A stretch of DNA of 54,189 bases from an uncultured Agathobacter sp. (GTDB taxonomy: Bacteria > Bacillota > Clostridia > Lachnospirales > Lachnospiraceae). A program made the translations under genes and the position numbers. Below, piece after piece: positions 940 to 54,189 of the stretch (position 1 is the stretch's first letter; each line of letters begins with the position of its first letter). The DNA is taken from assembly GCA_945910395.1 (NCBI GenBank), contig CAMDYX010000015.1:1-54189 (forward strand). The letters run 5' to 3'. The notes below the pieces were generated by a model, which was not told where the DNA came from, made no database searches, and was given only the letters and a program-made list of their open reading frames with translations.

Positions 940-1120
940 CTCCCATTTCGAATTTGCTTTCCTAAATGAATTTGCATATTCGAATCAGAACACGCTCCTG
1001 CTTCGTAAAAAGCGTAGCGGTACTAAATTCGCAATGAATTGCTCATTAAGTGCCGACGCTTTTTAAAAGTTCTGCTTCGAATAGCAAAATTCATTCTCAG
1101 GAATGCCAATCTGAAATAGG
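940..1120 (+). repeat. Family 1 palindromic element, copy 1 (forward)
   Basis: It starts CTCCCATTTCG and ends with a degraded CTGAAATAGG. The interior has the family hallmarks: AATTTGCATATTCGAATCAGAAC, the core hairpin AAAAAGCGT...ACGCTTTTT around GGTACTAAATTCGC, and TTCGAATAGCAAAATTCATTC. The whole element folds as one imperfect palindrome. It ends 31 nt before the start codon of the next gene. Confidence 0.85.
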
Positions 1121-1151
1121 TGTAAAAAAGTAATTGATAGGAGAAAATCAT

Positions 1152-2018
1152 ATGAAGATAGCAGTAACCTACGATAAAGAGAATCATTCCGTATGGCAGC
1201 ATTTCGGAAGAACAGAGGCTTTTAAGGTATATGATGTGGAGGGCGGCAGTATTACACACAGCGAGGTGGTCTCAACAAATGGAAACGGACACGGAGCATT
1301 GCCGGGATTTATCAAAAGCCTAGGGGCGGATGTTGTAATCTGCGGAGGCTTAGGAGCTCCGCTTGTGGATATGATTCATTCCCTTGGTATGGAGCTGTAT
1401 CCGGGAGTTACGGGAGATGCAGATAAAGCAGCAGAAAAATTCCTCTCGGGAGAACTGCAGACCAACGAGGAAGCGGTACATGTAGGTTGTCATCATGGAC
1501 ACGACGAGCATGAGGAGGGGCATTCTTGTGGCTGTCACCACGACGAAGGACATTCTCATGAGGAGGGATTTTCCTGCGGTTGTCATACTCCGGTGGGAAA
1601 TGAAGGAAAAACCTGCAGAGTACACTATGAGGGCACCTTCAATAACGGAGAAAAATTTGATTCTTCCTACGACCGGGGCGAAACACTGGAGTTTGTCTGC
1701 GGTGCAGGAATGATGATCAAGGGCTTCGATGAAGCGGTAAAGGAAATGAAGATCGGTGAGATAAAAAATGTGCATCTGATGCCGGAAGACGCTTATGGAC
1801 TGCCGGATCCGGCCGCCATTTTCAATGTGGATATCAGTGAGCTTCCGGGTTCTGAGAATCTGGAGGAAGGGCAGCAGGTGTATCTTACGAATCAATTTGG
1901 ACAGCCGATTCCGGTTACAGTTGCAGCAAAGGATGAGACAACCATTACTTTTGACGCAAACCATGAGATGGCCGGAAAGGAACTTAATTTTAAGATTGAG
2001 CTTGTAGAAGTGCTATAA
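1152..2018 (+). CDS. NifX-like (dinitrogenase Fe-Mo cofactor) domain / His-Cys-rich linker / SlyD-type FKBP prolyl isomerase fusion
   Basis: This 288-residue protein has three parts. Residues 1-105 resemble the NifX/NifB/YpsA-associated Fe-Mo cofactor domain (KIAVTYDKENHSVWQHFGR, GADVVICGGLG). Residues 110-145 form a metal-ligand-rich linker with 11 His and 5 Cys. Residues 152-288 are a SlyD-like FKBP with the insert-in-flap domain (CRVHYEGTF, KGFDEAVKEMK, PEDAYG). SlyD proteins bind Ni and other metals and act as prolyl isomerase chaperones. A cytoplasmic metallochaperone or metal-cofactor role is therefore inferred. The ATG at 1152 is preferred over an upstream GTG-like frame start because AGGAG lies 8 nt before it. 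A single-gene unit is likely, with a terminator at 2048. Confidence 0.85.
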   Translation: MKIAVTYDKENHSVWQHFGRTEAFKVYDVEGGSITHSEVVSTNGNGHGALPGFIKSLGADVVICGGLGAPLVDMIHSLGMELYPGVTGDADKAAEKFLSGELQTNEEAVHVGCHHGHDEHEEGHSCGCHHDEGHSHEEGFSCGCHTPVGNEGKTCRVHYEGTFNNGEKFDSSYDRGETLEFVCGAGMMIKGFDEAVKEMKIGEIKNVHLMPEDAYGLPDPAAIFNVDISELPGSENLEEGQQVYLTNQFGQPIPVTVAAKDETTITFDANHEMAGKELNFKIELVEVL

Positions 2019-2047
2019 CAAGGAATTTTATCCAAACAGGAATTAAG

Positions 2048-2083
2048 AAAGATTCGTCCCTGATTCAAGGATGAGTCTTTTTT
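2048..2083 (+). terminator. Intrinsic terminator after the NifX-SlyD fusion gene
   Basis: A 12-bp stem with two wobbles (AAAGATTCGTCC / GGATGAGTCTTT), a 9-nt loop and T-run. Confidence 0.8.
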
Positions 2084-2107
2084 ATTAGCTGCAGGAAGGA
2101 GTTTGGT

Positions 2108-2818
2108 ATGCTGCGGGACAAGGATATCAGGGAGCCACTGTTCGATTTTTTAGAAGAAACCTACGGGAAGGTGCGGATCATTGAAGAGAAAAATGTGGGA
2201 AATTCAAGAGCGGATGTTGTCATGGTGGCGCCGGATGCCCTATATGGCATTGAAATCAAGAGCGATGCCGATACCTATACCAGACTTGCAACCCAGGTAA
2301 AGGATTACGACAAATACTTTGACTACAATTTTGCCGTGGTGGGAACAAGCCACGCCTTCCACATCAGGGAGCATATACCAAAGTATTGGGGAGTGATTAC
2401 CGTAGAGGAAACGGAGGGTGGGCCTGACTTTTATATGCTGCAAAAACCACAGCAAAATCCGAAGGCTTCCTGGAGAAAAAAACTGGAGATTTTGTGGAGA
2501 CCTGAGCTTGCCAAAATTCAGGAGTGGAACCAGATGCCTAAATATAAGGAAAAGAGTAAGCACTTCGTAGTTACAAAGATTGCAGAAAAGGTACCGGATA
2601 AAATTTCCGAACAAGCATTAAAGGAACAGGTCAGCAAGCTTCTTATGGAGAGAGACTATAATGCGGTAGAGGAGCTGCTTGCAGAGTACCGCAAGGGGGA
2701 GATACAAAAACAATTGGAGAGGAAAGAAAATCCCGAAAAGCAGCTTGAATGGATGATGGAGCAGAGTGCCGCAAAAGCAAATTTTAAGCGGAAACGGCAC
2801 AAATCAAAACGCAGGTAA
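2108..2818 (+). CDS. sce7726-family protein (PD-(D/E)XK nuclease-like fold)
   Basis: A 236-residue cytoplasmic protein. The N-terminal third (MLRDKDIREPLFDFL, SRADVVMV, GIEIKSDADTYTRLATQVKDY) matches the sce7726 family, whose D...E-x-K pattern resembles restriction-endonuclease-fold nucleases. Here the candidate residues are the Asp of ADVV and Glu/Lys of EIKSD. The C-terminal tail from about 195 is strongly basic and charged (QKQLERKENPEKQ, KRKRHKSKRR), which would suit nucleic-acid contact. No restriction or phage genes are nearby. It has an AGGAAGGAG site before ATG. The biochemical activity is unproven. Confidence 0.75.
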   Translation: MLRDKDIREPLFDFLEETYGKVRIIEEKNVGNSRADVVMVAPDALYGIEIKSDADTYTRLATQVKDYDKYFDYNFAVVGTSHAFHIREHIPKYWGVITVEETEGGPDFYMLQKPQQNPKASWRKKLEILWRPELAKIQEWNQMPKYKEKSKHFVVTKIAEKVPDKISEQALKEQVSKLLMERDYNAVEELLAEYRKGEIQKQLERKENPEKQLEWMMEQSAAKANFKRKRHKSKRR

Positions 2819-2960
2819 GGACAAGCAGTTGTGGTACAAGCAGCTACTAAATAAGCAGTTACTAAACAACTCGAAACATCTTGCTATTTTTGGGGAAACC
2901 GATTAGTATAGTATGTAAGGAACTTATGCACTATAAAATGTAAGGGTTTGGGGAAACACT

Positions 2961-4829
2961 ATGGAAAAAAAGGTAAAAAAAGAGAAAACTCCGAAGGCGG
3001 CAAAAGCTGTGAAAGCACCAAAGACACCGAAGGAACCAAAATTACCGAAAAAAGCGAAGCAACAGAAGGAGAAGAAAGCCGGTAAGGCCGTAAGAGGAAA
3101 AAGTGTAGCAACGATGTTTACGGTGGTGCTGATTGTCATTGCACTGGTTGCTACTTTATCGAACTTAATGAACTATACTGCTCTAAAAGGAATGGGAAGC
3201 AGTATTGATAAGATCACACAAATCGGACTGGCAAATACAGAGCTGATCAGTGATGTAAAGTGCACTATTGAAGCAATTCAGAAGGATTTCTACGGGTATT
3301 CTTCTACCGGTGCGAAAACGGATGCCCATTCGAATTTTGGTGTAAATTACGATTTGGATACCCAGCATCTGGATAAGCTGCTGGTGCAGATGGCAGAACA
3401 GGGCTGGGATAGTGAGGTCGCGGATTTACAAGCGAATCTGGAGGAGATGTATGATAACATGTCAAAGATCATGTATTATGCAGATCTTGAGGACTCAGTA
3501 AATGACACCTCTATTGTTGCAGCACAGAAGGTCGTACAGCTGAATACCATTCAAAATGTCATTGATAATATGAATGCGAGTCTGGACTTACTTGCCGCAG
3601 CCTGTGATGAACAGACTGCAAAGGCCATTGCAGAAGCAGAAAGTCTGCAGACCCGGATGATGGCAGTTAGTCTGGTTATGATTCTGCTTACCATTGTCTT
3701 CAGCGTTGCGGGAGGCTTTTTCTCTTACGCAAGAATAGCAAAGCCACTGAAAAAAGCGGCAAAGGATTTGGGAGTAATCATTGCAGATATCCGTGAGGGA
3801 CACGGGGATCTGACAAATCATATTAAGTACGACGGACAAGATGAAATCGGACTTATGGTAGGTGGCTTTAATGAATTTATTGACGTTCTGAAGGATATGA
3901 TCGACAAGATCAAGAGTGGATCTTACCAGTTAGAAGAGGCAGCAGAGCTTGTAAATGAAGGAGTACGGGCTGCCGGTGACAAGATCTCAAGCACCTCCGC
4001 TACGATGCAGGAGCTTACTGCAAGTATGGAGGAAGCAACGGCTTCCATGGAGCGCATTTCTCATAATATCGAGCAGATCGGGCATGAAATTGTGGCTATG
4101 GCGGATCAGACAAATGAAGGTCTGGATTTTGCGGATAATATCAGGCAACGTGCGGATGAGATGAAGGAGAATGCGGAGGTTAGCCAGAATCAGGCAAACG
4201 GTATAGTAGGGGAGATTTCCGAACAGCTTGAGAATGCCATTGAGCAGAGTAAGCAGGTTGCCAAGATCAATGAGCTTACCGACGAAATCCTTTCGATTTC
4301 TTCTCAGACGAACTTACTGGCATTAAACGCATCTATTGAGGCAGCCAGGGCCGGGGAAGCTGGACGAGGATTTGCGGTTGTTGCAGAGGAAATCCGTAAC
4401 CTTGCAGACCAAAGCAGAAGCACGGCGAACGGTATTCAGGATATCAGCGCCCTCGTTATTCAGTCTGTGGAGGCACTTGCCAATAACGCAAAACGTATGC
4501 TTCAGTTTGTAAACGAGGATGTACTTTTAGCTTATCAGAACATGGTGCAGAATGGTGTCACCTATCATGAGGATGCCAACCAGATGAATCAGATGATGCA
4601 AATGCTTCAGGAGGCGACGGAACAGCTTCGTGCAGCAGCGGACGAGATTACACTTGCAGCCACCGGAGTTACAGAGGCCGTGAACCAGAGTGCCCTTGGC
4701 ATCGGAAATGCTGCTGAATACACGGGTGAGGTTGCGGAGCATATGCAGCTCATCAATGAATCTGTGGAGCAGAATCTTTCCATTGCCGATTCCTTAAAGG
4801 ATGAAGTAAAAGGCTTCAAATGTGAATAG
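2961..4829 (+). CDS. Methyl-accepting chemotaxis protein with Lys/Pro-rich N-terminal tail
   Basis: A 622-residue transmembrane chemoreceptor. Residues 1-48 are a repetitive Lys/Ala/Pro tail ([19 protein letters not shown]) that precedes TM1 (about 49-71). An extracytoplasmic helical sensor follows, then TM2 (about 233-255), a HAMP domain (about 256-310) and the MCP signalling domain. Its hairpin tip lies near 446-486 ([20 protein letters not shown]). The protein would relay an extracellular ligand signal to CheA/CheW, neither of which is in this window. The Lys-rich cytoplasmic extension is unusual. The next genes encode a substrate-binding-protein importer, so a link to its ligand is possible but only inferred. 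Confidence 0.93.
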
Positions 4830-4978
4830 TATAATTAGCATAGAGATATTCCGAAAGGGTATCTCTATTCTTATTGCAGGAGATCCTTTCCAAAGCTTTT
4901 TACATGGAATTGTTTTTCTGAAGGAACATAGCTTGACTTTGGGGTATGCGTTCAATAAAATGAGACACAATAAAAAAA

Positions 4979-5049
4979 TCCCATTTCGAAAAAGTGTTCC
5001 TGAGAATGAATTATGCAAATTCATTCAGGAACACAATTCCGAAATGCGA
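4979..5049 (+). repeat. Family 1 element, internally deleted mini-copy
   Basis: Only the terminal arms are present: CCCATTTCGAAAAAGTGTTCC...GAATGAATT joined straight to TGCAAATTCATTCAGGAACA...TTCCGAAATG. The core hairpin and inner arms (about 110 bp) are missing. It forms a compact hairpin and ends 35 nt before the next start codon. Confidence 0.85.
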
Positions 5050-5084
5050 TATAAAAAATTGAAAAACTTGGAAAAGAGGGACTT

Positions 5085-6173
5085 ATGAAAAAGAAAGTAT
5101 TATGTATGTTAGCAGCAGCTACTATGATGGCAACCATGCTTGCAGGATGCAAAAGCAGCGGGCAGGAGGAACAGAGCACCACAGAAAATACCGCAGAGGT
5201 GGTAACCCAGACGGAGAGTGAAGCAGTAAGCAACGAAGGTGCAGAAAATGAAGCGGTAGAAGTAACAGAGGAGAGCGCTGTAGTTCGTATCGGAGCAATG
5301 AGTGGCCCAACTGCAATGGGAATGGTTAAGCTTATGAGCGATGCAGAAGCCGGAAATACCACAAACAAATATGAATTTGCTGAGCTTTCTACAGATGCAT
5401 CTGCATTTGTTGCGCCTCTTGCAAAGGGAGAGCTTGATATCGCAGCAGTTCCATCAAATCTTGCCGCAACGGTATATAACAATACAGAAGGTAAGATTGA
5501 AGTTCTCGCAATCAATAATAACGGCGTTCTTGCAGTAGTAGAGCGGGGTGAGGATGTCAACACCCTCGCCGATCTTGCAGGAAAGACTGTATATGCAACA
5601 GGACAGGGAGCAGTACCGGAGTACAGCATCCGTTATCTGCTTTCTGAAAATGGAGTAGACCCGGATTCCGATGTAACGATTCAGTGGTGCTCGGATACAA
5701 CGGAAGCTCTTTCCTATATTAATAATGATGAGCATGCGGTAGCAATTTTACCACAGCCTTTCGTAACGGCGGCCTGTGCCCAGGTAGAGGGACTTCGTGT
5801 GGCAATCGATCTGAATGATGAGTGGGCTGCCCTTAACAATGGTTCAAGCATGGTAATCGGAGTTGTGGTTGTCCGCAAAGAATTTGCAGAGGCTCACCCG
5901 GTGGAGGTGGCTGTATTTATGGATGAATATGCAGAATCTGTTGCCTACGCAAAAGAGGATGTGGAAGGTGCCGCAGCTTTGATTGAGCAGTATGGCATTG
6001 TGGGAAAAGCAGCCATTGCACAGAAGGCTTTGCCGGGCTGTCATTTATCAGGAGTTACCGGAGAAGAGATGAAGAATGAACTTAAGGGATTCTTACAGGT
6101 TCTTTACGACCAGAACCCTCAGTCAGTAGGTGGCGCAATGCCGGGAGAAGATTTTTATTTTGAAACCTATTAA
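5085..6173 (+). CDS. ABC transporter substrate-binding lipoprotein (SsuA/NMT1-like)
   Basis: A 362-residue secreted lipoprotein with a basic N-terminus, hydrophobic stretch and lipobox MLAGC (Cys22), then an acidic Thr/Glu/Ser-rich linker. From about residue 68 it resembles periplasmic-binding proteins of the nitrate/sulfonate/taurine/thiamine-precursor class (GAMSGPTAMGMVKLM, KGELDIAAVPSNLAATVY, LADLAGKTVYATGQG). It is the first gene of a three-gene importer with the permease and ATPase downstream. The substrate cannot be fixed: no TPP, cobalamin or other riboswitch is visible upstream. An AGAGGGA site precedes the ATG. Confidence 0.9.
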   Translation: MKKKVLCMLAAATMMATMLAGCKSSGQEEQSTTENTAEVVTQTESEAVSNEGAENEAVEVTEESAVVRIGAMSGPTAMGMVKLMSDAEAGNTTNKYEFAELSTDASAFVAPLAKGELDIAAVPSNLAATVYNNTEGKIEVLAINNNGVLAVVERGEDVNTLADLAGKTVYATGQGAVPEYSIRYLLSENGVDPDSDVTIQWCSDTTEALSYINNDEHAVAILPQPFVTAACAQVEGLRVAIDLNDEWAALNNGSSMVIGVVVVRKEFAEAHPVEVAVFMDEYAESVAYAKEDVEGAAALIEQYGIVGKAAIAQKALPGCHLSGVTGEEMKNELKGFLQVLYDQNPQSVGGAMPGEDFYFETY

Positions 6174-6885
6174 AAAAATTGCAGCAGTACTGTTTGCACT
6201 TCTGGTGTGGCAGCTTGTGGCCATGGAGATTCACGAAAAGATCCTTTTGGTGACACCGATAGAGGTGCTTATGCGAATGTTTACAATTTGGCAGGTGGAG
6301 GGCTTCTGGTCCTCCATTTGGTTTACCTTTTACCATATTGCCGGAGGATTTCTGTTGGGGCTGGGCCTTGGGATTATTCTTGCAATTCTGGCTGCAAAAT
6401 TTCCGTTTCTGGAGACGCTGCTGTGGCCCTGGATGGCGGTAATCAAATCGGTTCCTGTGGCTTCCTTTGTGGTGATCTGCCTGATATGGCTCTCTGCCAG
6501 AAATCTTTCTGTGTTCATTTCATTTCTGATCGTCCTGCCCATTATTTACCAGAATATGCTGGTGGGAATCCGGGCAGAAAATAAGGAAATGAAAGAAATG
6601 GCGCAGATTTTTAAGATTGGCTTATGGAAGCGGACGCGATACATAACCATACCACAGATCCGTCCCTATTTGATTTCTGCCTGTGCCGTTACAACGGGAA
6701 TGGCCTGGAAAGCCGGTATCGCGGCAGAGATTATTGGTACACCGAATGGCTCCATAGGAAAAATGCTGTATCTTGCAAAAATTACGCTGGATACGGATGA
6801 CCTGCTGGCATGGACGGTGATTATCGTGGCAATTAGTGTAGCAACCGAAAAGCTGTTTATGTGGGGGCTTAAGAAAATCTTATGA
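6160..6885 (+). CDS. ABC transporter permease (SsuC/TauC-like)
   Basis: About 241 residues with around six membrane helices and the binding-protein-dependent permease signature region (KEMAQIFKIGLWKRTRYITIPQIRPYL). It forms the channel of the importer encoded by the flanking genes. The start is uncertain. A GTG at 6130 opens the frame but has no ribosome-binding site. A TTG at 6160, giving MKPIKKIAAVLF, has GGGAGAAG about 9-12 nt upstream and is preferred. Either start overlaps the end of the lipoprotein gene, so the two are translationally coupled. Confidence 0.88.
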   Translation: MKPIKKIAAVLFALLVWQLVAMEIHEKILLVTPIEVLMRMFTIWQVEGFWSSIWFTFYHIAGGFLLGLGLGIILAILAAKFPFLETLLWPWMAVIKSVPVASFVVICLIWLSARNLSVFISFLIVLPIIYQNMLVGIRAENKEMKEMAQIFKIGLWKRTRYITIPQIRPYLISACAVTTGMAWKAGIAAEIIGTPNGSIGKMLYLAKITLDTDDLLAWTVIIVAISVATEKLFMWGLKKIL

Positions 6886-14300: not shown

Positions 14301-14482
14301 ATCCCATTTCGGAAAAGTGTTCCCGAATGAATTTGCATATTTGAATCAGAACCCACTCTCGTTTGTAAAAAGCGTAACGGTACTAAATTCGCAAGTACTT
14401 GCTCATTAAGTGCCGACGCTTTTTAAACGTTCTGATTCAAATAGCAAAATTCATTCTCAGGAACAACATTCCGAAATGGGAT
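14301..14482 (+). repeat. Family 1 palindromic element, copy 3 (forward)
   Basis: A well-kept copy bounded by ATCCCATTTCGG and CCGAAATGGGAT. Inner arms are TTTGCATATTTGAATCAGAAC and GTTCTGATTCAAATAGC; the core hairpin is AAAAAGCGT...ACGCTTTTT. It ends 25 nt before the next start codon. Confidence 0.92.
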
Positions 14483-16127: not shown

Positions 16128-16161
16128 CGAATATCTCCTTATGAATTTTTTCCTTTTCTTC

Positions 16162-16335
16162 TATTTCGGAATTGTGTTCCCGAATGAATTTGCACATTTG
16201 AATCCAAACCCACTCTTGTTTGTAAAAAGCGTAACGGTACTAAATTCGCAATAAATTGCTCATTAAGTGCCGACGCTTTTTAAACGTTTAGATTCAAATA
16301 GCAAAATTCATTCGGGAACACAATTCCGAAATGCG
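16162..16335 (+). repeat. Family 1 palindromic element, copy 4 (forward)
   Basis: Bounded by TATTTCGGAATTGTG and CACAATTCCGAAATG, with the standard core (AAAAAGCGTAACGGTACTAAATTCGC...GCCGACGCTTTTT). It lies 34 nt upstream of the minus-strand gene start. The 435-bp gap up to 16562 also holds the next operon's promoter and leader. Confidence 0.92.
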
Positions 16336-16398
16336 ACTTCCTTTACAAAATATTACCAAATATTTGTATTTTTGTATACATTTTACCGCTAAAGTTCA

Positions 16399-23710: not shown

Positions 23711-23890
23711 ATCCCATTTCGGAAAAGTGTTCCCGAATGAATTTGCATATTTGAATCAGAACCCACTCTCGTTTGTAAAAAGCGTAACGGTACTAAATTC
23801 GCAATAAATTGCTCATTAAGTGCCGACGCTTTTTAAACGTTCTGATTCAAATAGCAAAATTCATTCTCAGGAACACAATTCCGAAATGAG
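23711..23890 (+). repeat. Family 1 palindromic element, copy 5 (forward)
   Basis: ATCCCATTTCGG to CCGAAATGAGA, full core, beginning 9 bp after the preceding stop codon. The preceding operon shows no other terminator, so the core hairpin plus T-run (ACGCTTTTT) may serve as one. The 487-bp gap up to 24188 consists of this copy and a family 2 copy. Confidence 0.92.
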
Positions 23891-23938
23891 AGTTAAGAAA
23901 TATAAGGAATTGTATTATTTGGCTGTGGAAATTTTTCA

Positions 23939-24136
23939 CTGTACCTAAAAACCTTGAAAAAAGCCGTCATTTTTGCCTTTTTCAAGGAGAATTGTATGTA
24001 TTTGCAAGATGATTTTTGCTCTGTACCTAAGAAATGAGGATTTTTAGGTATACGGTGAAAAGGGAGCTAAGAAAACATACAATTTGCCGGTTTGAGAGGG
24101 AATTTGGAGCTGTTTTTCGGGAAAATTAGGTATACG
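23939..24136 (+). repeat. Family 2 palindromic repeat, copy 2
   Basis: It begins TGTACCTAAAA and ends TTAGGTATAC. The middle carries CTGTACCTAAG...TTTTTAGGTATAC, and the inner arms are AATTGTATG and CATACAATT. The left arm also contains its own hairpin (CCTTGAAAAA...TTTTTCAAGG). It ends 52 nt before the next start codon. Confidence 0.8.
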
Positions 24137-25381: not shown

Positions 25382-25557
25382 TTATTTCGGAAATGTGTTT
25401 TTAAAAATGAATTTTGCTATTTGAATCAGAACGTTTAAAAAGCGTCGGCACTTAATGAGCAATTTATTGCGAATTTAGTACCGCTACGCTTTTTACAAAC
25501 GAGAGTGTGTGCTGATTTAAATATGCAAATTCATTTAGAAACACATTCCCGAAATGA
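25382..25557 (-). repeat. Family 1 palindromic element, copy 6 (reverse)
   Basis: In reverse orientation: GAATTTTGCTATTTGAATCAG, GTTTAAAAAGCGTCGGCAC, then GCGAATTTAGTACCGCTACGC. The terminal arms TTATTTCGG and CCCGAAATGA are slightly degraded. It fills most of the 354-bp gap between the CYTH gene and the DJ-1 gene, ending 58 nt before the latter's start. Confidence 0.9.
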
Positions 25558-25615
25558 CGGAGAGATTGGTACTGTTTTGGAATGACCAAAATGAATTTGG
25601 AAAGGATCTGATTGT

Positions 25616-30531: not shown

Positions 30532-31872
30532 ATGAGTGTACAGGTTGAGAAGTTAGAGAAGAACATGGCGAAGCTTACCATCGAAGTTTCTGCTGAAGAG
30601 TTAGAGAAAGCATTAGAGGCAGCTTACCAGAAGGAGAAGAATAAAATCAGTATCCCTGGTTTCCGTAAGGGTAAGGTTCCGAGAGCTATGGTTGAGAAGA
30701 TGTATGGTGCAGGAATCTTTTACGAGGATGCAGCGAATACCTTAATGCAGCAGAACTATCCTGCAGCAGTTGATGAGAGCGGTGTGGATATCGTTTCACG
30801 TCCTACTGTAGATATTGTTCAGATCGAAAAAGGCAAGCCATTTATTTTTACGGCAGAGGTTGCTGTACGCCCAGAGGTTACTCTTGGAAAATATACAGGT
30901 GTTACCGTAACTAAGATAGATACAACTGTAACAGATGCTGAGGTTGATGAAGCCTTAGAGCAGGAGAGAAATAAGAACGCCAGAGACATTTCCGTAACCG
31001 ACCGTGCTGTTTGTGATGGCGATACAGCAGTCATCGACTTTGAGGGATTTGTAGACGGAGTTGCATTTGAAGGTGGAAAGGGCGAGAATCATCCCCTTGT
31101 AATCGGATCTCATTCCTTTATTGATACCTTCGAGGATCAGATTATCGGCAAGAATGTCGGCGACGAGTTCGATGTAAACGTAACCTTCCCGGAGCAGTAT
31201 CAGGCTGCTGACCTTGCAGGAAAGCCGGCTGTATTCAAGGTAAAGGTTAACGAAATCAAGTCCAAGGAGCTTCCGGAACTGAATGATGAGTTCGCACAGG
31301 ATGTATCTGAGTTCGATACTCTTGCTGAGTACAAGGAAGACCTTAAGAAGAACCTTGAGAAGAAGAAGGAAGACGAAGCTAAGAGAACCAAAGAGGACGA
31401 GGCAATTGCAAAGATTGTTGAGAAGTCCAAGATGGAGATTCCGGATGCAATGATCGATACCCAGTGTGAGAACATGATTGATGAGTTTGCACAGAGAATC
31501 GCACAGAGCGGACTTTCCATGGAGCAGTACATGCAGTTCTCAGGAATGACTATTGATTCCTTAAAGGAGCAGGTTCGTCCGGAAGCAATCACACGTATTC
31601 AGACAAGTCTTGTACTTGAGCAGATTGCAAAGGAAGAGAACATTGAGATTTCCGATGAAGATATTGATGCTGAAATCGAGAAGATGGCAGCTTCATATGG
31701 AATGGAAGCAGATAAGCTGAAAGAGTACATGGGAGATGCTGAGAAGAATTCCATGAAGCGTGAGCTTTCCATTACAAAGGCAATCGACATCATTATGAGC
31801 AGCACAAAGGAAAGAGCAAAAGCAAAGTCTAAGAAAGAGAAAGACGCTGACGCTGAAGAAACAGAAGAATAA
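30532..31872 (+). CDS. tig: Trigger factor (ribosome-associated chaperone, prolyl isomerase)
   Basis: A 446-residue three-domain trigger factor. The N-terminal ribosome-binding domain contains the signature GFRKGKVPR (about residues 43-51). The central FKBP domain (about 150-245) includes GDTAVIDFEGFVDGVAFEGG. The C-terminal helical chaperone arms end in a Lys/Glu-rich tail. It folds nascent chains at the ribosome exit. AAGGAGGAAC lies before the ATG. It heads the proteostasis cluster with clpP, clpX and lon, an order common in Firmicutes. Confidence 0.98.
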   Translation: MSVQVEKLEKNMAKLTIEVSAEELEKALEAAYQKEKNKISIPGFRKGKVPRAMVEKMYGAGIFYEDAANTLMQQNYPAAVDESGVDIVSRPTVDIVQIEKGKPFIFTAEVAVRPEVTLGKYTGVTVTKIDTTVTDAEVDEALEQERNKNARDISVTDRAVCDGDTAVIDFEGFVDGVAFEGGKGENHPLVIGSHSFIDTFEDQIIGKNVGDEFDVNVTFPEQYQAADLAGKPAVFKVKVNEIKSKELPELNDEFAQDVSEFDTLAEYKEDLKKNLEKKKEDEAKRTKEDEAIAKIVEKSKMEIPDAMIDTQCENMIDEFAQRIAQSGLSMEQYMQFSGMTIDSLKEQVRPEAITRIQTSLVLEQIAKEENIEISDEDIDAEIEKMAASYGMEADKLKEYMGDAEKNSMKRELSITKAIDIIMSSTKERAKAKSKKEKDADAEETEE

Positions 31873-39734: not shown

Positions 39735-39923
39735 TACTCCCATTTCGGAAATATGTTCCTAAGAATGAATTTGCATATTTGAATCAGAACCCACTCTCGT
39801 TTGTAAAAAGCGTAGCGGTACTAAATTCGCAATGAATTGCTCATTAAGTGCCGACGCTTTTTAAACGTTCTGATTCAAATAGCAAAATTCATTCTTAGGA
39901 ACATATTTCCGAAATGGGAGTAT
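39735..39923 (+). repeat. Family 1 palindromic element, copy 7 (forward)
   Basis: The best-preserved copy. Its ends pair almost perfectly (TACTCCCATTTCGGAAATATGTTCC / GGAACATATTTCCGAAATGGGAGTA, given here as short arms). It has the full core hairpin. It starts 11 bp after a terminator and ends 30 nt before the Ger operon start codon. Confidence 0.94.
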
Positions 39924-44217: not shown

Positions 44218-44250
44218 ATATCTGCTCCAATCTGATTCATTTTGCTTGGC

Positions 44251-44278
44251 CCATTCAGAAACACAATTCCGAAATGGA
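44251..44278. repeat. Family 1 terminal fragment
   Basis: An isolated end: CCCATTCAGAAACACAATTCCGAAATGGA. It matches the right end of family 1 and lacks core and left end. It lies 34 bp upstream of spoIIR. Confidence 0.6.
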
Positions 44279-44328
44279 GCTTTTGCTTGTAATCAGAGTT
44301 TAGACAGATCAAAGAGTTTTATTCATAA

Positions 44329-44719
44329 TCCCTTTTCGGAATTACGAATTTAGTACCGTTACGCTTTTTACAAACGAAAGCGGCTTGTTCTTCATGCTTG
44401 ATTGGCAAATTGTATCATTTCGCCGGTTGATTTCCTTCCAGTACCTAAAATCTATGAAAAAAGCGGCATTTTAAGCGTTTTTTGTGGTCAATTGTATGTT
44501 TTCACCGGATCAATTTTAGCCTGTACCTAAGAAATTGCAAATATTAGGTATACGGCAAAGTCCACTCCTCAAAATAATACAATTCCCAGGAAAAATCCGC
44601 AATTTGAAGCTGTTTTTCAAGGATTTTAGGTATACGACAGTTTCGGCACCTCAAATCTTTCCAAATTCCACTGTTCTGATTCAAATAATTCATTCGGGAA
44701 CACTTTTCCGAAATGGGAT
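44329..44719 (-). repeat. Family 1 element, copy 8 (reverse), internally deleted and interrupted by family 2
   Basis: The left piece (44329-44384) joins TCCCTTTTCGGAATTA to GCGAATTTAGTACCGTTACGC, dropping about 100 bp. The right piece (about 44672-44719) resumes with GTTCTGATTCAAAT and ends ACTTTTCCGAAATGGGA. Between them lie unrelated bases and a family 2 copy. It accounts for most of the 556-bp gap between spoIIR and the next gene. Confidence 0.75.
44437..44640 (+). repeat. Family 2 palindromic repeat, copy 3 (nested in family 1)
   Basis: Starts AGTACCTAAAATC and ends GGATTTTAGGTATAC. The central pair is CTGTACCTAAG...TATTAGGTATAC, and the inner arms are CAATTGTATGTTTT and AATAATACAATT. 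It sits between two pieces of a family 1 copy. Confidence 0.8.
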
Positions 44720-44729
44720 TATTCATAAA

Positions 44730-45434: not shown

Positions 45435-46631
45435 ATGAAAAAGAAAATTGTTACTGTGCTCTTATGCGCAGCAGTTGCAACATCCCTTCTTGCCTGTGGC
45501 AATAAGGAAAATAATACACAGACAACAGAGGCTGCTACAGAGTCTGTTGCAGAGCCAACAACAGAAGGGGAGACCCAAGAAGTGACAGAGGAGACGATAA
45601 ACAGTCTTTCCTTTGATATTGATGCTACAAGCTGTGTAACCACCCTTGCGGATTATACAAATGTAGAGGTATCTTTAACCGGAGATTATGAAGTGCCCCA
45701 GGATTATGTGGATCAGGCCTTGGAGGGACTGTTGGAATCCGTTGGACTGACAGAACAGGAAGTGACGGATCGCGATGAGGTTCAGGAAGGAGATATCGCA
45801 AATATTGACTATACCGGCTACTTTAATGACGAAGCCTTTGAAGGCGGGACAGATACCGGATATGATCTGGCAATCGGATCAGGAGCCTTTGTGCCGGGCT
45901 TTGAAGAGGGATTGATCGGGGCAAAGGTCGGAGAGACGGTTACCATCGATGTAACATTTCCGGAAACCTACACCAATAACCCGGATCTTGCCGGACAGCT
46001 GACCCAGTTCGTCGTGACCATCAACAGCATAAAGGTGCCGGTTACCATTGATATGCTTAACGATGAACAGGTGGCAGAATATTTTGGCGATACCTATGAG
46101 ATTACTACAGTACAGGAGCTTTCCGATTATGCTGTAGGCTACGTAGAGGAGCAGGCTGTCACAAGCAGCATTATCGAGTATATGCTTACAAACAGTACCG
46201 TAGAGGTTCCGGAGGATTACTTAAATGCAAGAGTGGATGAGTATGTTGCACAGGCAGCAGCATACTACGGACTTGACATGGCATCTTTTGCGTCTATGAT
46301 GGAAGCATACGGTTCTTCTTTGGATGGCTACAAAGAAGAGATCAGGGAAAGCATAAGAGAGAGTATTGCCCAGGAGCTTATTTTTGAAGCAATCGGAATT
46401 CAGGAAGGATTTGACTCATACGGAGAAGAGTACGACGCGTTCATTCAGAAGAATCTGGATGAAAGCGCTTATTCTACCGCAGAGGACTTATACGATATCC
46501 TTGGTGATGGAAATCCTGAGTATGGCGAAAAGTATGCAAAACGTATGTATGTAATGAACCAGGCCTTGGATTTTGTAAAGAAAAATGCAACCGTTTCAGG
46601 AGCAAAAGTGTACACCTACAAGGAGCAGTAA
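45435..46631 (+). CDS. Exported trigger-factor-like lipoprotein with FKBP prolyl isomerase domain
   Basis: A 398-residue lipoprotein with lipobox LLAC (Cys21) and a Thr/Glu-rich linker. Its body reads like the second and third domains of trigger factor: an FKBP domain (about 95-195, GDIANIDYTGYFNDEAFEGGTDTGYDLAIGSGAFVPGFEEGLIGAKVGE) and a helical TF C-terminal domain (about 200-380). The ribosome-binding domain is absent. It probably folds secreted proteins at the membrane surface, a role analogous to PrsA. The cytoplasmic tig is at 30532. AAAGGA precedes the ATG. Confidence 0.9.
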   Translation: MKKKIVTVLLCAAVATSLLACGNKENNTQTTEAATESVAEPTTEGETQEVTEETINSLSFDIDATSCVTTLADYTNVEVSLTGDYEVPQDYVDQALEGLLESVGLTEQEVTDRDEVQEGDIANIDYTGYFNDEAFEGGTDTGYDLAIGSGAFVPGFEEGLIGAKVGETVTIDVTFPETYTNNPDLAGQLTQFVVTINSIKVPVTIDMLNDEQVAEYFGDTYEITTVQELSDYAVGYVEEQAVTSSIIEYMLTNSTVEVPEDYLNARVDEYVAQAAAYYGLDMASFASMMEAYGSSLDGYKEEIRESIRESIAQELIFEAIGIQEGFDSYGEEYDAFIQKNLDESAYSTAEDLYDILGDGNPEYGEKYAKRMYVMNQALDFVKKNATVSGAKVYTYKEQ

Positions 46632-48069: not shown

Positions 48070-48074
48070 TTTTA

Positions 48075-48257
48075 GCCCTTCTCCGGAATCGTGTTCCTGA
48101 GAATGAATTTTGCTATTTGAATCAGAACGTTTAAAAAGCGTCGGCACTTAATGAGCAATTTATTGCGAATTTAGTACCGTTACGCTTTTTACAAACGAGA
48201 GTGGGTTCTGATTCAAATATGCAAATTCATTCAGGAACACTTTTCCGAAATGGGAGT
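48075..48257 (-). repeat. Family 1 palindromic element, copy 9 (reverse)
   Basis: Starts CCCTTCTCCGGAATCGTGTTCC and ends ACTTTTCCGAAATGGGAG. The reverse-order core reads GTTTAAAAAGCGTCGGCAC...GCGAATTTAGTACCGTTACGC. It starts 5 bp after the asnS stop. Confidence 0.93.
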
Positions 48258-48311
48258 AATTTTAATAGTGAAAGTGTGACTTTCGATTCCTGAAAAAGTA
48301 CTAATTTTCTT

Positions 48312-48358: not shown

Positions 48359-48362
48359 ATTT

Positions 48363-48731: not shown

Positions 48732-48778
48732 GGCATCAGTATCATAAAAAAATGCTTCCCATATGCAAATACTTGTGC

Positions 48779-48784
48779 TATAAT
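48779..48784 (+). promoter_or_regulatory. Probable -10 of the SCIFF peptide promoter
   Basis: A perfect TATAAT preceded by TTGTGC, with only a poor -35 candidate (TTCCCA) 17 bp upstream. It lies 57 bp before the scfA start codon. Confidence 0.45.
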
Positions 48785-48841
48785 ACCAAAGATAGGCGAG
48801 CCATGTGCTCCCCAAGAAGAGCGAAAAAGGAGTGAAATCTT

Positions 48842-48985
48842 ATGAAGCACGTAAAGACACTTAATACAAGAAAATTACAGAACACCATCAAGAAGGGTGG
48901 CTGTGGTGAGTGCCAGACCTCTTGCCAGTCCGCTTGCAAGACTTCTTGTACAGTAGGAAACCAGACCTGCGAGCAGTACAAATAA
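48842..48985 (+). CDS. scfA: SCIFF ranthipeptide precursor (six cysteines in forty-five residues)
   Basis: A 47-residue peptide. A leader (KHVKTLNTRKLQNTIKKGG) is followed by a core with six Cys (GGCGECQTSCQSACKTSCTV...TCEQYK). Each Cys can be cross-linked by a thioether to an upstream residue by the radical SAM enzyme encoded next. SCIFF is nearly universal in Clostridia; its function is unsettled. AAAGGAG lies before the ATG. A terminator between it and the maturase suggests that the peptide mRNA is more abundant. Confidence 0.96.
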   Translation: MKHVKTLNTRKLQNTIKKGGCGECQTSCQSACKTSCTVGNQTCEQYK

Positions 48986-49014
48986 GACTGTACGAATTCA
49001 ATATGTTATTGTAG

Positions 49015-49047
49015 AAAACGACCGCACGCATCGCGAACGGTCGTTTT
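49015..49047 (+). terminator. Terminator between the SCIFF peptide and maturase genes
   Basis: A perfect 10-bp stem (AAAACGACCG / CGGTCGTTTT), followed by GTT. The T-run overlaps the stem. Confidence 0.75.
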
Positions 49048-49099
49048 GTTCGCAAAGCATAAAATTAAGATAAGAGAATAGAAAGAGAGGAATATTATA

Positions 49100-50464
49100 G
49101 TGGTTCATCAGTATAAGAACAACGGCTATGATATTGTCCTGGATGTAAATAGCGGCGCAATTCACGTAGTGGATGATGTTACCTATGATGTCATCGCTTT
49201 ATTTGAAGAGTACTGTTCAGAGGAAATTGTAAAGAAGCTGTCAGCACAGTATCCGGAGAGTGAGATCAAAGAGGCAATCGACGAAGTACAGGCTTTAAAG
49301 GATGCCGGGGAGCTTTTTACCGAGGATGTCTACGAGAAGCATATCATCGATTTTAAAAAGCGTCAGATCGTGGTGAAGGCCCTTTGCTTACATATTGCCC
49401 ATGACTGTAATCTTGCCTGTAAGTATTGTTTTGCAGAAGAGGGAGAGTATCACGGCAGACGAGCTTTGATGTCCTATGAGACAGGAAAGCAGGCCCTTGA
49501 CTTTTTGATTGCAAACTCCGGTTCAAGAAGAAACCTTGAGGTTGACTTTTTCGGCGGAGAGCCTCTTTTGAATTTTGATGTGGTCAAGCAGCTCGTCGCA
49601 TACGGACGGGAACAGGAAACGCTTTTCGATAAGCATTTTCGTTTTACCCTTACGACAAACGGGGTGCTGTTAAATGACGATGTCATGGAATTTGCCAACA
49701 AAGAGATGGACAATGTGGTGTTGAGCATTGACGGACGAAAGGAAGTTCATGACCGCATGAGACCCTTCCGCAAGGGTGCGGGAAGCTACGACCTGATTGT
49801 TCCAAAGTTCCAGAAGCTGGCCGAGAGCCGTAATCAGGACAGGTATTACGTGCGTGGAACCTACACACATTTCAATACCGATTTTTCCAAGGATGTACTT
49901 CATCTTGCGGACCTTGGATTTAAGCAGATTTCCGTGGAGCCGGTTGTGGCGCAGCCGACGGATGAGTACGCATTGCAGGAATCGGATCTTCCGGTTCTTT
50001 TTGAAGAGTATGACAAGCTGGCAGCAGAAATGGTTCGCCGCAAGAAAGAAGGAAATGGATTTAATTTCTTCCATTTCATGATCGATCTTGAGGGCGGTCC
50101 CTGCGTGTACAAGCGTTTGTCCGGATGTGGTTCGGGAACGGAATACCTTGCGGTAACCCCATGGGGAGATTTGTACCCATGCCATCAGTTTGTAGGAAAT
50201 GAAGATTTCCTGATGGGAAATGTGTGGGATGGCATTAAAGCAACCGAGCTTCGGGATGAGTTCAAATGCTGTAATGTATACGCAAAGGAAAAGTGCAGAA
50301 ATTGTTTTGCAAGATTCTACTGCAGCGGTGGATGTGCTGCAAACTCCTACAATTTCCACGGAACCATCACAGATGCCTATGATTTGGGCTGTGAACTTCA
50401 GAAAAAGCGCATTGAATGTGCGATTATGATAAAAGCCGCAGAGGCAGATAATGAGGAAGAATAA
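49100..50464 (+). CDS. scfB: SCIFF maturase (radical SAM/SPASM thioether-forming enzyme)
   Basis: A 454-residue radical SAM enzyme. An N-terminal precursor-binding region (residues 1-90, NNGYDIVLDVNSGAIHVVDD) resembles a RiPP recognition element. The radical SAM motif is CNLACKYC (Cys103, Cys107, Cys110). The C-terminal SPASM Cys cluster reads CRNCFARFYCSGGCAAN, for auxiliary FeS clusters. It installs Cys thioether links in the SCIFF peptide. GTG at 49100 follows AGAGAGG. The secDF gene lies 15 bp downstream. Confidence 0.96.
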   Translation: MVHQYKNNGYDIVLDVNSGAIHVVDDVTYDVIALFEEYCSEEIVKKLSAQYPESEIKEAIDEVQALKDAGELFTEDVYEKHIIDFKKRQIVVKALCLHIAHDCNLACKYCFAEEGEYHGRRALMSYETGKQALDFLIANSGSRRNLEVDFFGGEPLLNFDVVKQLVAYGREQETLFDKHFRFTLTTNGVLLNDDVMEFANKEMDNVVLSIDGRKEVHDRMRPFRKGAGSYDLIVPKFQKLAESRNQDRYYVRGTYTHFNTDFSKDVLHLADLGFKQISVEPVVAQPTDEYALQESDLPVLFEEYDKLAAEMVRRKKEGNGFNFFHFMIDLEGGPCVYKRLSGCGSGTEYLAVTPWGDLYPCHQFVGNEDFLMGNVWDGIKATELRDEFKCCNVYAKEKCRNCFARFYCSGGCAANSYNFHGTITDAYDLGCELQKKRIECAIMIKAAEADNEEE

Positions 50465-50479
50465 AGGAAGGAAAAGAAA

Positions 50480-52786
50480 ATGAAAAAGAGTAGAGGATTC
50501 ATCGTCATTGCACTTATCCTCGCATTCCTGATCGGAATGGGATATCTTGCAGCGACAACGGTTTCTGTTACAAGCACCAGCCAGAAAAAGGGCGATGGTG
50601 TTACAGATGCAGCAGGAATCAAACTTGGTTTGGACTTATCCGGTGGTGTTTCAATTACATACCGCATAAAGGATGAGAACCCATCACAGACAGATATTGA
50701 CGACACCATTGCAAAGCTTGAACAGCGTATCGAAGGGGATAATACAATTGCAACAACCGAGTATTCGGTATACCAGATCGGAGACGATCGTATTGCAGTA
50801 GAGATTCCCGGTGTATATGATGCAAATGCAGTTCTTGCAAAGCTTGGTAATCCGGGAAATCTGTATTTTATCACACAGACCGATGCAGATGGCAATGCAA
50901 ACTATGAGTATGACAGCACCATCGCCACTGAGCATCCGGAATGGTCTCCGTATTCTCTGACATCAGATATCGAAACCTTAATTGCAAATGGTTCTGTTAT
51001 TCTGACCGGTGAGGATGTACAGTCTGCAAGCGCGGTTTATGAGACAAATTCAACTCTTGGAACCCAGGAGCCTGTGGTTTCCCTGCAGTTCAATGACAGC
51101 GCAGCAGATATTTTCGGACAGGCTACCACCGCAGCTTATGCGGCAGGACAGTCTATCGGTATCTACTATGACGGACATTTCATCAGCGTGCCACGTGTAA
51201 GTGCAGCAATTCTTGATGGAAAATGTGTCATTAACGGAATGGGCGATTTCGATGAAGCTAACGAGCTGGCAACCTTCATTCGTGTTGGTGCAATGAAGCT
51301 AGAGCTGGAAGAGTTAGAGTCCAATGTGGTAGGAGCGCAGCTTGGCGGACAGGCACTTTCTACCAGTGTTAAGGCTGCTTTGATCGGTCTTGCACTTGTT
51401 ATGATATTTATGATTATCATGTATGGTCTTTCCGGTGTGGTTGCATCCGTTGCACTTTTACTTTACACCGCACTTGTTGTGAACTTTATCTACTGGTTCG
51501 AAGTAACACTTACCTTACCAGGTATCGCCGGTGTCATCCTTGGTATCGGTATGGCAGTGGATGCCAATGTAATTATTTACTCACGTATCCGTGAGGAGAT
51601 TGCTTCCGGCAAGACAATCGCTGTTGCGATGACAGACGGATTTAAAAAATCTTCCTCTGCAATCCTTGATGGTCAGATCACAACCTTTATCGCAGCCGTT
51701 GTACTTATGTTCCTTGGCTCCGGTACAGTAAAGGGATTTGCTTATACCCTTATGATTTCCATCATTTTATCTCTGTTTACAGCACTTGTTGTGTCAAGAT
51801 TTTTAATGAAGGCTCTCTATGCAGTTGGATTTAAGTCAGAGAAGCTTTATGGAAGAGCAAAGGAGCGCAAGTCTATCGACTTTATGAAGCGCAGAATCCT
51901 TTATTTTGTGATTTCTCTGGTTGTGATCGTTGCCGGATTTATCGGTATGGCAGTTAATGCAGGCAGCGGAAACAGGGCACTAAATTACAGCCTTGAGTTT
52001 GTCGGTGGAACATCAACAACTGTTGATATGGGAAAGAACTACACCATTGAACAGGTGGAGAAAGAGGTTGTTCCTGTTGTGGCAGATGTGATTGGAGATA
52101 ACGCTATTCAGGCTACTACCGTAGATGGAACAACAAACGTAGTATTAAAGACACGTACCCTGACTCAGGAACAGCGTGAGGCTGTTGACAATGCTCTTGC
52201 TGATAACTTTGGAGCAGTCCTTGTGGAATCTCAGAGTATCAGTTCAACCATCAGCAGTGAGATGAGAGCAGATGCAATCCTTGCGGTTATAGTAGCATGT
52301 ATCTGTATGCTTCTTTACATCTGGTTCCGTTTCAAGGATATTCGTTTTGCAGCAAGTGCAATCGCAGCACTTGTACATGACGTACTTGTTGTACTTACCG
52401 CATATGCCCTGATTCGTATTTCTGTTGGTAATACCTTCATCGCATGTATGCTTACCATCGTAGGATATTCTGTCAACGATACCATTGTCATTTTTGACCG
52501 TATCCGAGAGAATATGCACAGTGTTACAACTCCGACTCCGGAGAACCTTGCTGCGGTTGCAAATAAGTCTCTTACCCAGACCTTATCAAGAAGTATCAAT
52601 ACTTCCATCACAACCTTTATCATGGTATTGTTCCTGTTTATCCTTGGTGTAGCATCTATCCGTGAGTTCGCACTTCCGCTGATGGTTGGTTTGATCTGCG
52701 GTTCCTACTCATCCATCTTCATTGCTACCGAGCTTTGGTACATCATGAAGCTTCATTTAGGAAAAGGTCGCCTGATTAAGAAATAA
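50480..52786 (+). CDS. secDF: Fused protein translocase subunit SecDF
   Basis: A 768-residue fusion of SecD (about 1-465) and SecF (about 470-768). Each half carries six membrane helices; the SecD part has the GLDLSGGVSITYRI motif and the large extracytoplasmic P1 domain. It uses the proton gradient to pull exported proteins through SecYEG. The SecD/SecF order and junction (KSIDFMKRRILYF) are complete, with no frameshift. AAGGAAGG precedes the ATG, 15 bp after scfB, so the two are co-transcribed. Confidence 0.97.
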   Translation: MKKSRGFIVIALILAFLIGMGYLAATTVSVTSTSQKKGDGVTDAAGIKLGLDLSGGVSITYRIKDENPSQTDIDDTIAKLEQRIEGDNTIATTEYSVYQIGDDRIAVEIPGVYDANAVLAKLGNPGNLYFITQTDADGNANYEYDSTIATEHPEWSPYSLTSDIETLIANGSVILTGEDVQSASAVYETNSTLGTQEPVVSLQFNDSAADIFGQATTAAYAAGQSIGIYYDGHFISVPRVSAAILDGKCVINGMGDFDEANELATFIRVGAMKLELEELESNVVGAQLGGQALSTSVKAALIGLALVMIFMIIMYGLSGVVASVALLLYTALVVNFIYWFEVTLTLPGIAGVILGIGMAVDANVIIYSRIREEIASGKTIAVAMTDGFKKSSSAILDGQITTFIAAVVLMFLGSGTVKGFAYTLMISIILSLFTALVVSRFLMKALYAVGFKSEKLYGRAKERKSIDFMKRRILYFVISLVVIVAGFIGMAVNAGSGNRALNYSLEFVGGTSTTVDMGKNYTIEQVEKEVVPVVADVIGDNAIQATTVDGTTNVVLKTRTLTQEQREAVDNALADNFGAVLVESQSISSTISSEMRADAILAVIVACICMLLYIWFRFKDIRFAASAIAALVHDVLVVLTAYALIRISVGNTFIACMLTIVGYSVNDTIVIFDRIRENMHSVTTPTPENLAAVANKSLTQTLSRSINTSITTFIMVLFLFILGVASIREFALPLMVGLICGSYSSIFIATELWYIMKLHLGKGRLIKK

Positions 52787-52819
52787 GACTTGGGAAATGC
52801 CTGGCATAGAAATGATAAT

Positions 52820-53003
52820 ACTCCCATTTCAGGAATGTGTTCCCAAATGAATTTGCATATTCGAGTCAGAACCCACTCTCGTTTGTAAAAAGCGTAGCGG
52901 TACTAAATTCGCAATAAATTGCTCATTAAGTGCCGACGCTTTTTAAACGTTCTGATTCGAATAGCAAAATTCATTCTAAGGAACACAAATCCGAAATGGG
53001 GTA
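52820..53003 (+). repeat. Family 1 palindromic element, copy 10 (forward)
   Basis: Starts ACTCCCATTTCAGGAATGTG and ends CACAAATCCGAAATGGGGT, with inner arms carrying TTCGAGTCAGAAC/GTTCTGATTCGAA and the standard core. It lies between secDF and its terminator. Confidence 0.92.
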
Positions 53004-53020
53004 TAGAATAAGGTGATTTT

Positions 53021-53078
53021 GTACCGGCCTCAAAAGTTGGACTAGACAGTTTGCTTTTGTAGGACCGGTACTTTTTTT
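53021..53078 (+). terminator. Terminator downstream of secDF
   Basis: GTACCGG and CAAAAG pair with CTTTTG and CCGGTAC across short bulges, followed by seven T. It is on the far side of the family 1 copy. Confidence 0.8.
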
Positions 53079-53103
53079 ACTGGCTGGCAAGGTCGGGAAA
53101 AGC

Positions 53104-53259
53104 AGTAAAATGAGCTAGTGAAGTCTCATATTACTGACGGAGTGAGAAAAAATGTCAGTAAGATGAGCTGGTGAAGTGTCATATTACTGACGGAGCGAGA
53201 AAAAGCGTCAGTAAAGTGAGCATGTAAAGAGCCTTATTACTGATAAAGGCAGAAAAAGC
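53104..53259 (+). repeat. Three tandem 53-bp repeats with overlapping hairpins
   Basis: Units at 53104-53156, 53157-53209 and 53210-53259 (last one 50 bp, more diverged). The first two are about 87% identical. Each carries CAGTAA..TGA...TCA..TTACTG, and neighbouring units also pair as TTACTGACG...CGTCAGTAA, so alternative hairpins overlap. The array fills the gap ahead of the DUF1294 gene and would lie in its leader. No promoter was recognised. Confidence 0.85.
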
Positions 53260-53286
53260 AGTATAACAGAGAAAGGTTGGTGAAAA

Positions 53287-53550
53287 ATGGAGCGTATCAT
53301 TTACATTTATCTGATTATCATAAATCTGGTCGGGGTTGCAGTGATGGGAATTGACAAAAGCAAAGCAAGGCGGCAGGCCTGGAGAATACCGGAAAAGACC
53401 CTATTTCTCATCAGTATACTTGGAGGAAGCATTGGGACATGGGCAGGAATGTATTTGTTCCGTCACAAAACAAAGCATTGGTACTTTGTTGTGGGAATGC
53501 CTCTCATTCTTTTCGTGCAGCTTGCATTGGTGTTCTGGTATATGCGATAA
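53287..53550 (+). CDS. DUF1294-family membrane protein
   Basis: An 87-residue protein. It has two or three hydrophobic segments and the DUF1294 core (VMGIDKSKARRQAWRIPEKTLFLISILGGSIGTWAGMYLFRHKTKHWYF). This short form is common; the function is unknown. GAAAGGTTGG precedes the ATG, preceded by the tandem 53-bp repeat array. Confidence 0.9.
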   Translation: MERIIYIYLIIINLVGVAVMGIDKSKARRQAWRIPEKTLFLISILGGSIGTWAGMYLFRHKTKHWYFVVGMPLILFVQLALVFWYMR

Positions 53551-53705
53551 GCCTCCTGGAGCTACTACTTCTATGATATTTCAGGAAAACCTTTCCAAAA
53601 TGAGAGATTTTTTTCCGGTTATGGATGGAAGAAAAATAAGAGAGTAAAAGTAAGGGAGTATTAATAAGAGGGTAAAAATGTGTATGCATACAAGGAGAAT
53701 GTGTT

Positions 53706-54068
53706 ATGAAGTATGACTGGATTGATGAATACTTACTTGCAAAAAAGGGCGTTAATAAGGATTTTAAAGAGGAATGGAACTGGCGAAGATATATGATAGA
53801 AGGTAAGATGTTTGTAGCAGTATGCTTTGACGATGATAATAAGGAATCCCTGATCACTTTAAAACTGGACCCGATTGAGGGAGATTTGTTAAGGCAGAGT
53901 TATCAGGACATCATTCCGGGATACTATATGAATAAGGTCCATTGGAATTCCATTAAGGTGGATGGAGACATTTCGGATGATATGATGATGGATTTGTTAG
54001 ATAAATCCTATGAGCTTGTGCTGGCTGGGTTTAGTAAAAAGAAACAGATGGAAATCTTAGGTCTGTAG
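53706..54068 (+). CDS. MmcQ/YjbR-family DNA-binding-like protein
   Basis: A 120-residue soluble protein. It matches the MmcQ/YjbR (CyaY-like fold) family: YLLAKKGVNKDFKEEWNWRRYMIEGKMFVAV, LKLDPIEGDLLRQSYQDIIPGYYMNKVHWNSIKVDGDISDD. The end, LLDKSYELVLAGFSKKKQ, is typical. Members have a double-wing DNA-binding-like shape, but no clear role is known. AAGGAG precedes the ATG. No terminator was found other than the family 1 copy that follows. Confidence 0.92.
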   Translation: MKYDWIDEYLLAKKGVNKDFKEEWNWRRYMIEGKMFVAVCFDDDNKESLITLKLDPIEGDLLRQSYQDIIPGYYMNKVHWNSIKVDGDISDDMMMDLLDKSYELVLAGFSKKKQMEILGL

Positions 54069-54098
54069 AGTTCAAAAAAAGAAGAGCCTTTAAATTAA

Positions 54099-54189
54099 TC
54101 CCTTTTCGGAATTGTGTTCCCAAATGAATTTTGCTATTTGAATCAGAACCCACTCTCGTTTGTAAAAAGCGTAATGGTACTAAATTCGC
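54099..54189 (+). repeat. Family 1 element, copy 11 (chimeric, cut by the window end)
   Basis: It opens TCCCTTTTCGGAATTGTGTTCC and continues GAATTTTGCTATTTGAATCAG, the arm normally found at the right end or in reverse copies. It then runs ACCCACTCTCGTTTGTAAAAAGC in forward core order. The rest lies beyond base 54189. Confidence 0.85.

Follow-up and report, generated by a model that had tools for sequence, protein, structure and literature searches.

A palindromic repeat with transposon-like ends and a conserved folded core in Agathobacter and other Lachnospiraceae

The 54,189-bp contig CAMDYX010000015.1 of an uncultured Agathobacter sp. (the window) carries repeated intergenic copies of a palindrome of about 180 bp, and many more are found in the rest of its genome, a 3.14 Mb draft that is 89% complete (G000). 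How does such an element spread, and what keeps it folded? A first-pass annotation had proposed either a miniature inverted-repeat transposable element (MITE) or a structure resembling repetitive extragenic palindromic (REP) sequences and bacterial interspersed mosaic elements (BIMEs). The reading that we hold, with a confidence somewhat above even, is that of a non-autonomous palindromic DNA transposon, i.e. a MITE, whose conserved folded core would be selected as RNA on one particular strand. We found no description of the element in the open-licence literature.

A conserved core inside variable ends

Inwards from the ends of the element come arms of about 50–60 bp and a short stem, then the side hairpin ACGCTYTCGCT, a stem that varies, GTARCGGTAC, a distal hairpin that also varies, and TAAGTRCCGACG, after which the element runs back. 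Its covarying core of about 106 nt recurs within elements with unlike ends. Across 66 sequences, 80.8% of the cells of the core structure form, compared with 66.5% in shuffled alignments and 34–36% when the structure is slid, a control in which it is favoured by having been drawn from one of the aligned sequences. Changes on both sides of a pair number 386 cells, against 172 ± 13 after shuffling; covariation in the core holds up in a larger alignment. The interior of the element is more constant than its ends, which points to selection on the folded core.

The side hairpin was fitted in 95 of 104 non-redundant copies; the other nine, several of which have longer stems by eye, did not fit the hairpin frame and were left out. 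Because stem pairing and the A and G on either side are favoured by the fit itself, the loop is its sole independent count. On the strand opposite to that written in the first-pass annotation (hereafter the GNRA strand and the reader's strand, respectively), the loop is GNRA in 94 of the 95 copies (GAAA, GAGA, GCAA, GGGA, GCGA or GGAA), and its third base is a purine in all 95. Among the G000 copies the loop is GNRA in 80 of 83, six of 89 copies having been left out as not fitting the frame. With a pattern that left pairing free, the stem is complementary in 103/103 copies with four pair combinations, after the exclusion of 11 of 114 copies that did not match the pattern. Judged from the sequences, the GNRA loop is an RNA-like signature. 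No loop–receptor covariation was detected for it; the lone feature pair below p 0.01 lies outside the loop.

The core also folds better on the GNRA strand (−46.7 against −43.2 kcal/mol), with the lower energy in 80 of 104 copies under RNA parameters and in 74 of 104 under DNA parameters; these copies are related to each other, and no p-value is quoted. The GNRA strand would more likely be the working strand of the core. A strand test on the inner stem (G-U 53 to A-C 15; 59 to 16), first taken as favouring the reader's strand, was withdrawn because many such 'stems' are unpaired GCTC/GCTC stretches. In the 57 of 104 copies whose inner stem has at least four of six pairs formed, there are 3 G-U and 5 A-C.

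Complementarity of the outer arms

The outer arms behave differently from the core. The paired substitutions reported for them are real, with 115 arm cells changed on both sides and pairing kept in the 63 long G000 copies (seven contigs, 795 kb), but they are not the rule, since 431 cells changed on one side only. An RNA helix would strongly favour G-U. Outside G000, arm mismatches comprise 107 G-U and 103 A-C, and in wider sets the counts are 150 against 171 and 176 against 196. Because G-U is not favoured as it would be in an RNA helix, we read the complementarity of the arms as a DNA-level property; DNA-level symmetry or arm homogenisation would yield equal mismatches, and the arms would then give no argument for RNA folding. 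Of the two possibilities named in the first-pass annotation, selection on folding or recent arm homogenisation, selection on folding can be retained for the core, where covariation and the GNRA loop persist. It is not supported for the outer arms, since the two mismatches occur there about equally often in copies from outside G000.

In Falcatimonas sp. MSJ-15 (L079 7150–7830), two inverted copies lie 300 bp apart and have the core and inner stem in common. Their outer arms are wholly different from each other, and each is internally complementary.

Ends and target-site duplications

Terminal inverted repeats bound the copies, and several sets of copies are flanked by target-site duplications. 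Allowing the ends to shift by a few bases gave a duplication with at least 8/9 matching bases in 16 of the 63 long G000 copies (shuffled mean 2.4, maximum 7 in 200 shuffles), and exact duplications numbered 3 against 0.08 expected from shuffles. Copies with TAGGnnnTTGnGAAAC ends have duplications of 9–12 bp in five of seven cases, three of them exact, and both copies with GTAACAGTTCA ends have 8-bp duplications, one exact; controls gave 0 in either case. Flanking repeats of at least 10 bp accompany 17 of 166 copies, with about 3.2 expected. At least three kinds of ends occur with one core, and duplication length differs with lineage. By its ends and duplications the element is a MITE and not a REP, which upholds the first of the two proposals in the first-pass annotation.

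Two genomes with no core match, G022 and G017 (L033, L037, L032), have lone ends like those of G000 beside ordinary genes. These may be remnants or relatives of the element.

Candidate transposases

By size alone, the element cannot encode a transposase. None had been seen in the window, and in G000 Y1_Tnp, DDE_Tnp_1, ISLre2 and IS66 are all absent and one reverse transcriptase domain is present. A candidate partner was found in a sister genome, G074 (99% complete, 22 matches), which lacks Y1_Tnp and RVT_1 and has one ISLre2 gene and one IS66 gene. There, an IS66-type element of 2,208 bp (L297) has ends GTTACTGTTCA, which match GTAACAGTTCA at 9/11 bases, and is flanked by an exact 8-bp duplication, TGGGCAGG, the same length as that of the GTAACAGTTCA-ended copies. 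Of the 7,592 windows at that locus, none but these two ends shows such likeness. For the other ends, among them TAGGnnnTTGCGAAAC and nTCCC(A/T)TTT, no partner was found.

Transposase families were compared across 60 genomes of the genus, of which 15 carry the element. Y1_Tnp is not associated with it (4/15 carriers, 16/45 non-carriers), nor is RVT_1 (8/15 against 21/45), so a link to retrons or reverse transcriptases was not found; ISLre2 occurs in 2/15 carriers and 10/45 others. IS66, sought in five genomes, is present in G079 and G074 and absent from G000, G004 and G067. Element-like ends were found at none of four ISLre2 loci and at one of two IS66 loci checked. In the 795 kb of G000, five inverted pairs of its ends lie 0.25–3.5 kb apart with no transposase recognised, the genes between them not having been scanned. 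A strict end pattern gave no pair at insertion sequence (IS) distance in three genomes.

Copy number, placement and distribution

At least 150 matches were retrieved from G000: all 150 scored candidates match, out of 785 candidates, and three are cut by contig ends. The seven contigs hold 99 places in all. A strict pattern finds the core in 57 of them and not in the other 42, several of which are full-length copies with a changed core base. Extrapolation gives an estimate of 200 or more copies in 3.14 Mb.

The repeat had been described as lying only between genes, which agrees with our counts for G000, where none of the 63 long copies falls inside an open reading frame (ORF) of at least 150 aa. 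The same crude ORF caller placed 5 of 96 copies from other genomes inside one. The 5′ end of the element lies a median of 12.5 bp behind stop codons in G000 (44 cases), and between co-directional genes the reader's strand is the sense strand in 35 of 44 copies. We do not build on this bias because other species show none (26 sense to 29 antisense). An apparent leading-strand preference in G000 (44/63) was rejected as due to gene direction, copies between convergent or divergent genes being split 8 to 10.

A class-wide draw of 391 genomes gave 11 positives, all in the Lachnospiraceae, the family of the window; five negatives of that family are among those listed. Within the genus, 45 of the 60 genomes have no match. 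A scan of a genome collection retrieved at least 113 matching stretches, with Butyrivibrio sp. M55 and Lachnospiraceae bacterium GAM79 among the cultured carriers. Among the matches listed, 57 titles read Lachnospiraceae, and other labels comprise genera such as Butyrivibrio or Acetatifactor, which belong to the same family, together with seven Eubacteriaceae, three Gastranaerophilales and one Bacteroides. These last three labels may be binning errors. The element of the window has no match in phages or plasmids, and the core pattern has none in viral contigs. No Rfam family scored above its gathering threshold in the window, and the element gave only weak hits to plant and animal microRNAs, far below threshold.

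Contig C1 of G000 contains a stretch of about 217 kb (79.5–296.5 kb, L247–L258) with no copy; much of it is low in G+C, and it holds an ATPase and other genes unlike the surroundings. It is perhaps an acquired island, gained after the main spread of the element. Copies adjoin the RNase P RNA gene in two genomes of the genus, one following the gene and the other preceding it (L038 1–370, L178 1501–2090).

A proposed mechanism and its alternatives

In the mechanism that we propose, transposases acting in trans, different ones per lineage, would recognise the ends of the element. The arms would stay complementary at the DNA level, through palindrome-templated repair and the recognition of two alike ends, rather than through RNA pairing. 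The core would be selected as RNA on the GNRA strand, in the form of a stem with a GNRA-capped side hairpin. Our guess at its role is that this RNA module binds a host protein and helps to retain the element where its site is transcribed; an RNA module is our preference over DNA structure or host regulation. A bolder version, which we advance tentatively and at less than even confidence, is that the core represents an RNA class not described before, present throughout the family and dependent on movement for its survival. Several sets of transposon ends would have taken up, or served to maintain, the one GNRA-capped module, and the RNA rather than the transposon end would be the constant part of the element.

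Several results count against an RNA core carried by a MITE. One-sided arm changes in G000 lean to the reader's strand (G-U 121 to A-C 82), two whole elements that were folded are both slightly more stable on that strand, and at one pair of the core 83 of 195 copies have T.G while none has C.A, which also suits it. Two of the five covariation measures barely exceed shuffled values (22 against 20.5 covarying pairs; 81 against 76.4 pair types). RNAalifold, run on its own, recovers eight pairs, which make up the GGTAC stem and the side hairpin. When the ends are fixed at exact positions, a duplication is seen in only 2 of 20 G000 copies (control 0.32), and the ends of G000 were not found on any transposase-bearing element. 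Furthermore, the composite at 44329–44718, whose core is broken, still has a perfect 10-bp duplication (TTATTCATAA at 44319–44328 and 44719–44728); movement may not require an intact core in cis, unless the damage to the core followed insertion.

The same MITE could instead have a core that acts as a single-stranded or cruciform DNA hairpin, bound by a transposase or by a replication or repair protein. We regard this as the lesser possibility, though one of real weight. Loops of the GNA or GNNA type make short DNA hairpins unusually stable, the GNRA strand also folds better with DNA parameters, the arms have no strand preference, both orientations occur and the core forms the apex of a long palindrome in the DNA. 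Nevertheless, the invariant purine at the third loop base is needed by a GNRA RNA and is not expected of a DNA loop, and the duplications, like the lack of a Y1 gene in G000, oppose single-strand transposition of the Y1 type. A host regulatory RNA, either a stabiliser in the 3′ untranslated region or a terminator, which selection on neighbouring genes had spread and whose mobility was incidental, would account for the position of G000 copies close behind stop codons and for their common orientation. We consider it improbable, given that the bias is missing in other species and that the distribution is patchy, both within the genus and along contig C1.

The REP/BIME-like reading was not borne out. 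A REP-like element moved by a REP-associated tyrosine transposase (RAYT, of the Y1 type), with a core resembling a GTAG-tagged hairpin, would fit the GTAR that precedes an imperfect hairpin in the core, REP tags being GTAG or CGTC in the part of PMC3733652 used here. As in the tagged REPs of that source, the copies are intergenic, palindromic and numerous, with GTAR beside a hairpin. They differ from its REPs and RAYTs in measuring about 180 bp instead of 20–40, in their partly paired tag (its GT is paired in all 66 aligned copies), in their duplications and in having no association with Y1, a gene absent from G000. A REP origin is very improbable.

Comparison with known elements

ERIC/RU-1, YPAL/RU-2 and NEMIS are palindromic bacterial MITEs of 100–200 bp, and in the portion of PMC2229807 that treats them they share with our element a long stem-loop, intergenic location, inverted ends and, in some, duplications. 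Unlike these repeats as described there, the element has a centre steadier than its ends, of which no fewer than three kinds occur, and a side hairpin that covaries and is capped by a GNRA loop. The IS66-type IS of G074 resembles one class of the element in its ends and in the length of its duplication, but it carries a transposase, sits in another genome of the genus and accounts for that one end class. Palindromic candidate structured RNAs of human microbiomes are likewise intergenic, palindromic and covarying in gut bacteria, but the four palindromic examples compared are mostly or wholly from Bacteroidetes (PMC8040213, in the part covering them); the wider list of 250 may hold an entry that overlaps with the element.

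It is by their ends that bacterial MITEs are defined, and most are viewed as decayed transposons; here the inside is better kept, in several genera of the one family. Whether the RNA structures of such repeats have any function becomes testable with this element, for which there are a covariance model, a loop of defined sequence class and natural variants in the hundreds. The element also matters for annotation, as it takes up space between genes in gut bacteria and is liable to be misread as a terminator or a regulatory RNA.

Copies in the window

Eight complete copies were detected in the window, scoring 72–81 bits with the covariance model R1. A sequence pattern for the core matched the same eight, against 0 in 100 shuffles, and the repeat search agrees with both. 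The first-pass annotation had listed eleven loci: each holds the element or a piece of it, but the sites beyond these eight are coreless, a lone arm, broken or cut by the contig end (Table 1). Its statement that both orientations occur is confirmed.

Table 1. Copies, derivatives and internal features of the palindromic element in the window
Feature	Position	Strand	Remarks
Complete copy	941..1118	+	core 980-1085
Derivative of two arms, 71 bp	4979..5049		no strand; core missing
Complete copy	14301..14482	+	core 14341-14446
Complete copy	16158..16338	+	core 16198-16303
Complete copy	23711..23892	+	core 23751-23856; served as query for the genome
Side hairpin of the 23711 copy	23765..23772	-	reads AC-GAGA-GT on this strand; GNRA loop
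Conserved centre of the 23711 copy	23784..23828	+	GTAACGGTAC...TAAGTGCCGACG
Complete copy	25384..25560	-	core 25415-25520
Complete copy	39736..39920	+	core 39779-39884
Lone arm fragment	44234..44279	-	repeat search (family D6)
Composite, 390 bp	44329..44718	-	both ends, broken core, second repeat family inside
Complete copy	48079..48259	-	core 48111-48216; flanking repeat matches 8/9
Complete copy	52821..53002	+	core 52861-52965
Copy cut by contig end	54099..54189	+

A second palindromic repeat family, GTACCTAA...TTAGGTATACG, lies inside or beside copies of the element at window positions 442–632, 23908–24055 and 44389–44690, and is found elsewhere in G000 at C2:106272–106658, C3:57062–57503 and C3:93153–93571. 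Two genes of the window (30532–31872 and 45435–46631) have similarity to trigger factor, the second below the curated cut-off. Directly behind the copy at 52821, a 53-bp unit is present in three tandem copies (53103–53261).

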